A program made the position numbers and the translations under genes. The notes beneath the pieces are model-generated. The model was not told the origin of the DNA and ran no database searches. It was given only the letters and a program-made list of their open reading frames with translations. Shown piece after piece: positions 5,362 through 32,421 of a stretch of DNA of 48,410 bases (position 1 is its first letter; every line of letters begins with the position of its first letter). The DNA lies in NCBI GenBank assembly GCA_017517865.1, contig JAFWYB010000023.1, positions 1 to 48,410 of the forward strand, in the 5' to 3' direction. This DNA is from Clostridia bacterium. Lineage in GTDB: Bacteria; Bacillota; Clostridia; Oscillospirales; Acutalibacteraceae.

Positions 5362-5396
5362 AAGAAAAAAGGCGCTGTATTTTTTACAGCCCCTTT
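5362..5396 (-). terminator. Terminator of the 30-residue micropeptide gene
   Basis: On the minus strand GGGGCTGTA pairs with TACAGCGCC around an A-rich loop, followed by TTTTTTCTTTT. It begins 16 bases after the micropeptide stop codon. Confidence 0.75.
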
Positions 5397-5411: not shown

Positions 5412-5504
5412 TCAGAGCAATTCCTTCATAATGTCGTCGCCAAAGGCGTCGAGAAGCTTTCTTATAAGGCCCATAAGTACGTTGATAATAGCTAAAATAT
5501 CCAT
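5412..5504 (-). CDS. 30-residue amphipathic micropeptide (PSM-alpha-like)
   Basis: This short gene has a perfect ribosome site (AAGGAGG, 7 bases before ATG), an extended -10 promoter and its own terminator. The product begins MDILAIINVLMGLIRKLLDA, continues with an acidic stretch and ends in KELL; net charge is about -2. Hydrophobic residues recur every 3-4 positions, giving an amphipathic helix. The start resembles staphylococcal alpha-type phenol-soluble modulins (M-x-I-I-A-x-I-I-K-V-I-x-x-L-I). There is no leader peptide and no neighbouring transporter or modification enzyme. Three related genes lie at 31607-32351. A small toxin, a surfactant-like peptide or a membrane-binding peptide are all possible; the role is unproven. 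Confidence 0.75.
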   Translation of the reverse strand: MDILAIINVLMGLIRKLLDAFGDDIMKELL

Positions 5505-5552: not shown

Positions 5553-5561
5553 ATTATATCA
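5553..5561 (-). promoter_or_regulatory. Extended -10 promoter of the micropeptide gene
   Basis: On the minus strand TGATATAAT is a perfect extended -10 element, about 50 bases before the micropeptide start. No good -35 box is visible. Confidence 0.6.
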
Positions 5562-30714: not shown

Positions 30715-31488
30715 ATGAACTATAATCTTGATTTCAGCGAAAAATCGGTGCTCATAACGGGTGCGGCAAGCGGCATCGGCCTTGAAAGCACCGTAGCTTT
30801 TCTTCAGAACGGTGCAAAGGTATATATGGCAGACTGTAACGGGATACAGCTCAGCGCAAGGGCTGATGAGCTTATAAAGCAGTACGGTGAAGAGAAAATA
30901 GTTGCTCTTGTGTGCGATATAACCGACAGTGAAAGCGTTAAGGCTATGACCGCAGAGATAAAAATGCTCGGCGGCGATATTGATATTCTCATAAACAACG
31001 CGGGTATGTCCCATCAGCAATACAGCATTTATGAAAAGGAAGAGGACTGGAATAAGGTTATCAATCTCAACCTTACAGCTCAGTTTTTTCTTGCACAGAC
31101 CGTTGCCAACGAATTCTTTCTGACCAAAAAGCAAGGTAAAATTATAAATATGTGTTCTCTCGGCGGTGTACTTGGCATACCCTCAGCCGTTGCGTACAGT
31201 GCCTCAAAGGGCGGACTTATTCAGACCACCAAGAGCCTTGCCTTTGAATGGGCGAGATTCGGCATCAACGTAAACGCAGTCTGTCCCGGCTTTGTTGATA
31301 CGCCTCTTATTGCAGAAAGCACGTCAGACGAAAGATGGGTGAATTATATGATATCACGAACCCCGATGCGCAGACTTGCAAGACCCGAGGATGTTGCAGG
31401 AAGTGTGATTTTCCTTGCATCTGATATGGCGGATTATATAACGGGAGCAACCCTTATTGTTGACGGAGGTATGTCGGCAGGAGCGTAA
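30715..31488 (+). CDS. Short-chain dehydrogenase/reductase (classical SDR)
   Basis: The 257-residue NAD(P)-dependent oxidoreductase has the Rossmann motif GAASGIG (16-22), the NNAG motif (94-97), catalytic Ser148, and YSASK with Tyr161 and Lys165. The C-terminal DYITGATLIVDGG is typical of FabG- and gluconate dehydrogenase-like SDRs. An acidic residue at the end of the second strand (MAD, Asp40) suggests NAD preference. GAGGGG lies ahead of ATG 30715. It is monocistronic with its own promoter and terminator; the substrate cannot be predicted. Confidence 0.9.
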   Translation: MNYNLDFSEKSVLITGAASGIGLESTVAFLQNGAKVYMADCNGIQLSARADELIKQYGEEKIVALVCDITDSESVKAMTAEIKMLGGDIDILINNAGMSHQQYSIYEKEEDWNKVINLNLTAQFFLAQTVANEFFLTKKQGKIINMCSLGGVLGIPSAVAYSASKGGLIQTTKSLAFEWARFGINVNAVCPGFVDTPLIAESTSDERWVNYMISRTPMRRLARPEDVAGSVIFLASDMADYITGATLIVDGGMSAGA

Positions 31489-31556: not shown

Positions 31557-31597
31557 CAAAAAACCGCTGTGCTCATAAGAACACAGCGGTTTTTTTC
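31557..31597. terminator. Bidirectional terminator between SDR and micropeptide genes
   Basis: ACCGCTGTG / CACAGCGGT stem, flanked by AAAAAA on the left and TTTTTTT on the right. Confidence 0.9.
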
Positions 31598-31606
31598 TGT
31601 TTTCAA

Positions 31607-31741
31607 TTATGCATCTTCTTCTGCAAGCTTTGCGTCGATCTTAGCTGCAAGATCTACGAGCTCCTTAACACCTGTCATAACAAGGATGTCTGTAAGAAGA
31701 TCAATCCAACCGGCGATGAGTGCCTTGATTTCTGCTGTCAT
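31607..31741 (-). CDS. 44-residue acidic amphipathic micropeptide
   Basis: A perfect AGGAGGT stands 8 bases before the ATG, with a TTGACA-17-TAAAAT promoter upstream and a strong terminator 10 bases after the stop. The product contains IKALIAGWIDLLTDILVMTG followed by a second helix (VKELVDLAAKIDAKLAEE). Net charge is about -5. The WIDLLTDIL core resembles IVDFLNKIL and IIEFVKKIL in the two neighbouring peptides. There is no signal peptide, Cys, leader cleavage motif or adjacent transporter. In size and charge it resembles beta-type phenol-soluble modulins (about 44 residues, acidic). The function is unknown. Confidence 0.75.
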   Translation of the reverse strand: MTAEIKALIAGWIDLLTDILVMTGVKELVDLAAKIDAKLAEEDA

Positions 31742-31807
31742 TGTAAATTACCTCCTGTTAATATTTCGGTCGTACCGATGCTGTGCGGATTTCTCCGTAA
31801 TGAATTT

Positions 31808-31836
31808 ATTTTAACAAACTGTGAAGAAAATGTCAA
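31808..31836 (-). promoter_or_regulatory. Promoter of the 44-residue micropeptide gene
   Basis: Minus strand: TTGACA (31836-31831), 17-base spacer, TAAAAT (31813-31808). One mismatch from full consensus. Confidence 0.85.
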
Positions 31837-31943
31837 TGGGTATATATAAAAATCAGAAGAAAATGAGAGTCACCGCGGGAATAGTCTTGGCTTACTTCTC
31901 GTAAAAATCATGAGGCAGCAGAACACGGGAGCTCTGCTGCGTG

Positions 31944-31978
31944 CACAAAAAAGAACCGCCCATAAAGGCGGTCTTTTA
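31944..31978 (-). terminator. Terminator of the two-gene micropeptide unit
   Basis: ACCGCC-CATAAA-GGCGGT with TTCTTTTTT on the minus strand, about 45 bases after the 46-residue gene. Confidence 0.8.
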
Positions 31979-32017
31979 ATTATACTATACTATACTATAA
32001 TTATGTTGTTAGAAGAA

Positions 32018-32158
32018 TCATTCTGTAACTTCTTCTTCTACTTTTTCCCAGCCTTCTTCTTTAGCGATAAAGCCGAAGATTTCGCCAAGGATCTTGTTGA
32101 GGAAGTCAACGATCTGCTGGAATGTGATCTTAATTTCTTCTGCAAGTTTGAAGCTCAT
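32018..32158 (-). CDS. 46-residue acidic amphipathic micropeptide
   Basis: AGGAGGT lies 8 bases before the ATG. The product has FQQIVDFLNKILGEIFGF as a strongly amphipathic helix followed by an acidic tail (EGWEKVEEEV); net charge is about -6. It is the second gene of a unit with the 48-residue gene, 46 bases downstream of it, and is followed by a terminator. The hydrophobic core matches the other peptides at I-[VI]-[DE]-F-[LV]-x-K-I-L, so it belongs to the same small family. No known family is recognised. Confidence 0.75.
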   Translation of the reverse strand: MSFKLAEEIKITFQQIVDFLNKILGEIFGFIAKEEGWEKVEEEVTE

Positions 32159-32204
32159 TACTAAATACCTCCTATTAGATTTTTTGAATTGAAATCTGTT
32201 TTAA

Positions 32205-32351
32205 TTAGAAATCAAATTCGAATGAAAGGATCTTCTTAACGAATTCGATGATTGTGTTAAGAAGGTCTTTAAGGTTGAAGCTTTCAACTTTTTCTTCGCC
32301 TTCATAAACATCAACGATTACATCGTTTTCTACTTTGATATCGTCAAGCAT
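32205..32351 (-). CDS. 48-residue acidic amphipathic micropeptide
   Basis: AAGGAGGT stands 7 bases before the ATG, and a TTGACA-17-TAAAAT promoter lies 42 bases further upstream. The N-terminal half is acidic and beta-like (VIVDVYEGEEKVESF); the C-terminal half holds the helix LKDLLNTIIEFVKKILSFEF. Net charge is about -8. It is the first gene of the two-gene unit. Promoter, ribosome site and terminator all argue for high expression of a real product. The function is unknown; membrane-active peptide, small toxin or regulatory peptide are candidates. Confidence 0.75.
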   Translation of the reverse strand: MLDDIKVENDVIVDVYEGEEKVESFNLKDLLNTIIEFVKKILSFEFDF

Positions 32352-32392
32352 TGTACGTACCTCCTTTATTATTCCTATTACTAGGTGTCTAT

Positions 32393-32421
32393 ATTTTATA
32401 ACAATATCTTTATTTTGTCAA
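32393..32421 (-). promoter_or_regulatory. Promoter of the two-gene micropeptide unit
   Basis: Minus strand: TTGACA (32421-32416), 17-base spacer, TAAAAT (32398-32393), the same hexamers and spacing as the promoter at 31808-31836. The rest of this 305-base gap (32422-32620) is AT-rich with nothing recognisable. Confidence 0.85.

Follow-up and report, generated by a model that had tools for sequence, protein, structure and literature searches.

What three very short reading frames, packed together on the minus strand of a Clostridia contig, may do for the cell is the question raised by this locus. The window analysed here, i.e. the whole stretch of 48,410 nucleotides, corresponds to contig 13 in a draft genome of 2.69 Mb (the home genome, G000 in the following). 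A preliminary description had recognized in it a cluster of acidic amphipathic micropeptide genes with strong expression signals, and had proposed an undescribed family similar to phenol-soluble modulins (PSMs), or to small toxins, in gut Clostridia. Genes of this size are usually missed by annotation, yet most of those described below carry near-perfect promoters and strong Shine-Dalgarno sequences. If made and exported, their products would be abundant peptides of the herbivore gut, with surfactant, antimicrobial or signalling roles as in staphylococci, and the cassette design and fast turnover of the genes would make them a good system for studying how micropeptide families originate and diversify.

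The cluster and its signals

The three reading frames (48, 46 and 44 codons) were found again, as were the two units into which they had been grouped, A-B and C, each with a TTGACA-17-TAAAAT promoter and its own hairpin terminator. The features are, in the order of transcription:

32393-32421, minus strand: promoter of the A-B unit, TTGACA-17-TAAAAT, 11/12 matches
32374-32385, minus strand: small stem-loop of the A-B 5' leader, 4 pairs
32360-32365, minus strand: Shine-Dalgarno sequence of A, AGGAGG, 8 bases from the ATG
32205-32351, minus strand: micropeptide A, 48 aa, net charge -8, gene 1 of the two-gene unit
32168-32173, minus strand: Shine-Dalgarno sequence of B, AGGAGG, 9 bases from the ATG
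32018-32158, minus strand: micropeptide B, 46 aa, net charge -6, gene 2 of the A-B unit
31954-31973, minus strand: terminator-like hairpin after B, fold z -4.3
31808-31836, minus strand: promoter of the C unit, TTGACA-17-TAAAAT, 11/12 matches, TG before the -10
31766-31797, minus strand: two stem-loops of the C 5' leader, from leader folding
31751-31756, minus strand: Shine-Dalgarno sequence of C, AGGAGG, 9 bases from the ATG
31607-31741, minus strand: micropeptide C, 44 aa, net charge -5, in a unit of its own
31558-31595, minus strand: terminator-like hairpin after C, 17 pairs, fold z -7.5

The perfect AGGAGG reported for all three genes is thus present, but at 8, 9 and 9 bases from the ATG and not at 7-8. 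Folding of the A-B leader gives z -2.5 for the leader alone and z -0.06 (not significant) when the Shine-Dalgarno region is added. The common core I/W-[VI]-[DE]-[FL]-[LV]-x-x-I-L holds in A (IIEFVKKIL), B (IVDFLNKIL) and C (WIDLLTDIL), and the charges listed above agree with the net acidity of -5 to -8 first noted; gene A also encodes a long N-terminal part with no obvious amphipathicity.

That such genes are not a product of chance was assessed with a finder that takes ATG reading frames of 28-66 aa with a strong Shine-Dalgarno sequence, lying outside long reading frames. Its four hits in the window, i.e. A, B, C and a fourth member far from the cluster, compare with a mean of 0.34 (maximum 3) in 200 shuffles of the window's intergenic sequence, and are more than chance would give. 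The features of this fourth member are:

5553-5561, minus strand: extended -10, TG-N-TATAAT, read from the sequence, with no good -35 seen
5412-5504, minus strand: fourth member, 30 aa, net charge -2
5366-5396 (approximate), minus strand: terminator-like hairpin, read from the sequence

The best full promoter found before the 30-aa gene by a scripted scan has 9/12 matches, and a 93% identical relative occurs in genome G005 (pN 0.04, pS 0.54).

A family spread through the genus

The three-gene cluster exists as described, but it accounts for only a few members of a far larger family, which is organized partly in two-gene units. The search of related genomes that had been proposed as a check (protein, profile and promoter searches, with fetched stretches) gave 123 distinct peptides, a few singletons among them doubtful, in 23 of the 34 genus genomes, with at least 12 members in the home genome; none was obtained from the other 11. 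Of 133 finder hits in fetched genus loci, inspection by eye discarded 28 (among them ribosomal proteins and Cys-rich or cationic sequences), which left 105 curated members in 19 genomes; the further 18 peptides came from terminase loci and from one gene hidden by the finder's mask. With 20 stretches taken from each of two locus lists, these counts are lower bounds and not a census.

The largest arrays hold 11 genes in 3.1 kb (G017), 8 (G031) and 7 (G021). By comparison, an arbitrary 398 kb from eight species of the genus gave seven finder hits, of which none is clear and one (locus L308, a neutral peptide) is possible, and an arbitrary 398 kb from six genomes of other genera gave eight, none of the family type by eye. 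The near-blank arbitrary stretches indicate that the members are clustered rather than evenly spread.

The position of the arrays varies. The window's arrangement, with the array after purL, is found again in G031, while in G005, G016 and G032 arrays are found elsewhere, near ileS (rnf, ileS, mfd and the short-chain dehydrogenase are reading frames named by reading, the purL and dehydrogenase domains being identified also by domain search). Of 571 purL relatives the best 80 were used (68-93% identity); they come mostly from assemblies of uncultured Clostridia and Oscillospiraceae, in many cases of ruminant-gut origin, in keeping with the habitat first suggested. In 1.23 Mb around these 80 genes the finder gave 14 hits, none of the A-B-C type by eye; since 72 of the loci extend at least 1.2 kb past purL, the placement of the array at purL is lineage-specific. 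For the short-chain dehydrogenase gene that adjoins the cluster (window 30715-31488, plus strand), tblastn at E 1e-40 gave no match among the same 80 loci, so that this flank of the site is variable too.

Outside the genus, profile A3 gave two hits besides the home genome in 295 genomes of the order, and profiles A4 and A5 gave seven and five hits in other genomes among 391 of the class; no micropeptide of the family's type was seen at the 14 non-home loci inspected. As A3 recovered, at threshold, one of the at least 12 members in G000, such profiles miss most members, and the result that no member was recognized outside the genus comes from insensitive profiles and does not prove absence.

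Homology and selection

A phmmer comparison among the 105 members gave 141 links, against 0-2 in five pattern-preserving shuffles and 0-1 in five full shuffles. The largest group includes 61 members from 19 genomes, and the other 44 fall into small groups or stand single; homology is well supported for most, rather than for all 105, of the members. A relative of A, 40% identical, is found in G016; for B there are relatives at E 1.4e-9 (G016) and E 1.5e-4 (G031), and for C in G005 and G002.

A separate observation concerns the best conserved branch, the MFW-x-D-x-T subfamily, whose motif is invariant in five species (G000, G002, G011, G023 and G006), in differing gene contexts:

L258:7091-7234, L219:9769-9915, L165:14537-14671, L163:1059-1190 and L188:1584-1709: members of the MFW-x-D-x-T subfamily

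As to coding conservation, for which the preliminary description had pointed to a Ka/Ks of about 1 as the contrary sign, pN is lower than pS in every pair computed. This includes 36 of 36 cross-species pairs (pooled pN 0.25, pS 0.62; third positions account for 571 of 1137 differences), which were picked at a protein identity of at least 50% and are non-independent, a choice that favours a low pN. The pN/pS values are 0.21/0.45 and 0.40/0.74 for B, 0.32/0.71 and 0.35/0.51 for C, and 0.38/0.52 for A, which is weakly constrained. As judged from these substitution patterns, the family is under purifying selection. On the evidence of sequence comparison, the cluster is part of a multi-copy amphipathic micropeptide family, known so far from the genus alone, that duplicates and diverges fast.

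Character of the peptides

The 123 peptides are 26-61 aa long (median 41 aa) and net negative in all but two cases (121/123; mean charge -4.3), with Arg at 1.0%, Cys at 0.1% (present in 5/123) and Trp in 67/123. An amphipathic helix, as had been claimed, finds support across the family: the helical moment (100 degrees) exceeds that of shuffles at p<0.05 in 67% of the peptides (Fisher 1e-82, with p floored at 1/300), against 0.8% for a beta-strand control (165 degrees). The longest uncharged stretch has a median of 7 residues and reaches 17 or more in 2/123, which leaves the peptides without membrane-spanning segments; 'leaderless' refers here to the absence of long uncharged stretches.

Short, strongly initiated and repeated reading frames could also encode type I toxins, AgrD-type signal precursors, RiPP precursors or leader peptides, and one of 70 members scanned did touch Pfam AgrD (E 0.01). 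Such an identity is very improbable, as the rarity of long uncharged stretches argues against type I toxins, together with the lack in the window cluster of a strong antisense promoter (the best plus-strand site has 9/12 matches) and of any Rfam match at Rfam's cut-off, while the scarcity of Cys and the lack of a recurrent, recognized processing gene speak against AgrD or RiPP precursors; against the whole group stand the terminators that the reading frames have of their own.

Expression units and gene pairs

In the recurring unit, a consensus promoter is combined with one or two close peptide genes and a terminator, and a 5' stem-loop is often present. A promoter with at least 10/12 matches is found within 140 nt of 70 of the 105 members (perfect in 26), the spacer being 17 nt in 67 of these 70, and a terminator lies within 120 nt downstream of 69/105, compared with 1.2 in shuffles. 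For the 56 family leaders folded, mean z is -1.84 and 48% reach p<0.05, against -1.00 and 25% for 73 control leaders of other strongly promoted genes (difference p 4e-4); since about 9 of the 56 have no or almost no stem-loop, and controls do show it, the 5' stem-loop is a tendency of the family that is also found outside it. Codon bias is seen for Ile (ATC 0.67 versus 0.29), Ala (0.92 versus 0.70), Glu (0.78 versus 0.59), Phe and Asn, and is little or absent for Asp, Lys and Gly. Promoters, leaders and codon bias across the family agree with the strong expression signals first reported for the window, and the prediction that the units are designed for high output is well supported.

Distances between neighbouring genes are bimodal. 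At short gaps (21-77 nt) there are 22 pairs, 21 of them without a terminator in between; at long gaps (at least 107 nt, for pairs under 700 nt) there are 37, with a terminator in 32; no pair falls between 77 and 107 nt. LFGF-like motifs are frequent in second genes and the II-x-F core in first genes, and similar gene pairs recur in G000 and G016, in G002 and G014, and in G005 and G032. Close pairs with recurring first-gene and second-gene types, in lineage-specific arrays, are what would be found if the peptides were two-peptide antibacterials (class IIb or multi-peptide leaderless bacteriocins) acting on close relatives, the immunity being intrinsic or specified by genes elsewhere. This is unlikely, given peptides that are net acidic and leaderless, with no immunity or export gene that recurs.

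Neighbouring genes and the capsid module

Within 4 kb around 44 clusters, no exporter, immunity or modifying/processing gene was recognized as recurring in three or more genomes, in keeping with the lack of an adjacent transporter noted in the window. As a side observation, three arrays, each in a different species, have a DUF559 gene at a distance of 119-284 bases:

L168:7731-8204, L009:9036-9443 and L011:1735-2115: DUF559 genes near arrays

A phage head module is instead the recurrent neighbour, by arrays of W-type peptides in eight genomes, its genes being identified by PHROGs as TerS, TerL, portal, structural protein and major head protein. In the home genome it is found outside the window:

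L254:2315-8964 (G000, contig C24): head module with TerS, TerL, portal, structural and major head proteins; integrase not seen

TerL occurs in 33 of the 34 genus genomes, 31 of which have a single copy. At the family rank it was found in 194 of 300 genomes (88 of 135 genera), there at times in two or three copies. Five comparisons show it to be under purifying selection. The module has the look of a capsid element that was domesticated, perhaps as a gene transfer agent. For Ruminococcaceae and Oscillospiraceae, PMC12946183 reports gene-transfer-agent activity. In the stretches examined, TerL has W-type peptides no more than about 1.5 kb away at 18 of 30 genus loci (17 and that of G017), with none at the other 12 and none at 25 TerL loci of other genera; given these latter loci, the capsid module appears to predate the peptides.

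The proximity to a conserved module raises the option that the W-type branch supplies partner or release factors of the adjacent capsid/terminase genes, possibly of a gene transfer agent. It is improbable in view of the 12 genus loci and all 25 loci of other genera that have no such peptide, of the distance of the window cluster and other arrays from the module, and of promoters that look constitutive; the common position may be plain inheritance.

An internal role is conceivable for species-conserved members near the capsid module. More generally, the main rival to export is that amphipathic peptides stay in the cell and act on the producer's membrane or on a protein partner, e.g. as envelope or division regulators or scaffold helices. 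The peptides have no export signal, no exporter is among the recurrent neighbours, and certain subfamilies are well conserved between species (the MFW-D-T motif, in five genomes, and the W-type peptides among them). Such a number and diversity of copies, their arrays and their patchy occurrence would nevertheless be unusual for a fixed internal partner, and the strong promoters of most units also weigh against it, so that an intracellular role is possible but somewhat doubtful.

A proposed role

The reading that we favour, tentatively and as the likeliest rather than as a probable one, is that these are exported, membrane- or surface-active peptides of the PSM-beta type, many of them made as pairs, export and activity both being inferred. 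Each unit, with its strong promoter, frequent 5' stem-loop, strong Shine-Dalgarno sequence, one or two peptides and terminator, would give high output; the primary translation products would themselves be released from the cell and may act at membranes or other interfaces, surfactant-like or weakly lytic, as beta-type PSMs do. Two-gene units would provide partner peptides, the acidic charge could spare the anionic membrane of the producer, and the fast turnover may mirror competition or the host niche. The PSM-beta-like reading draws on the acidity, helix moment and few uncharged stretches of the 123 peptides, on the 141 similarity links and pN below pS, on promoters, codon bias, two-gene units and terminators, and on traits shared with PSMs, besides PSM-alpha3 as the top, albeit not significant, PDB match. 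Against it stand the lack of a recurrent exporter nearby, PSM profile matches that are not significant, the N-terminal part of A, and an acidity that appears greater than that of most PSMs.

A bolder, and rather unlikely, extension would see in gut Oscillospiraceae a combinatorial, largely two-peptide acidic arsenal that ranks among the community's most highly translated gene sets, is kin to the Clostridiales peptides of 29 aa known from MetaRibo-Seq, and has one branch linked to a conserved capsid system: a new class of secreted interface peptides shaping membranes, competitors or DNA-carrying particles in the gut.

Comparison with known families and systems

Searches of Pfam and NCBIfam with A, B, C and 70 members assigned no consistent family, with no significant match to the PSM models, and PHROGs, PDB and Rfam gave nothing consistent either; assignment to a known family was dropped, and the family is undescribed, as supposed, in that Pfam, NCBIfam and PHROGs give it no name. 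PSM_epsilon was weakly touched by one of the 70 (E 7.6e-4), a member not among the 10 rescanned, and the unrelated NarX model was touched with a better score by another (E 3.3e-4); a profile of the 70 placed PSM-alpha3 chains at the top of the PDB (E 0.14-0.18, not significant). Short length, lack of a leader and an amphipathic helix are as in PSMs; membership in the PSM families failed in profile search.

An origin as phage or plasmid cargo was also considered and rejected: the 901-base cluster has no DNA match in 50,697 phage and 72,556 plasmid records, tblastn of one W-type peptide against phages and of B against plasmids gave no match, and the 88 pattern hits of profile A4 on viral contigs yielded no confirmed member. 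In full-text literature, with subscription journals and preprints largely outside its scope, no paper on such arrays was found.

Class IIb two-peptide and leaderless multi-peptide bacteriocins, which are cationic and come with immunity and export genes, resemble the family in having neighbouring genes for two short amphipathic peptides; the family differs in being acidic and in having no recurrent immunity or export neighbour. Staphylococcal beta-type PSMs, according to PMC9520458 and, for further PSM features, PMC12607899, are amphiphilic helices of 4-5 kDa with no leader, with several genes per operon, and small size, amphiphilic leaderless helices and multi-gene units are common to both (PMC9520458). 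In contrast, the family has no significant profile match and no known exporter nearby, belongs to another branch of the phylum, and forms a far larger and more diverse set. Finally, the W-type peptides (28-40 aa) may be set beside MetaRibo-Seq family 386917 (about 29 aa), also from Clostridia; the likeness, compared by description, is one of length and broad taxonomy only, and PMC7324362 reports very high output for these Clostridiales peptides and predicts family 386917 to be secreted.
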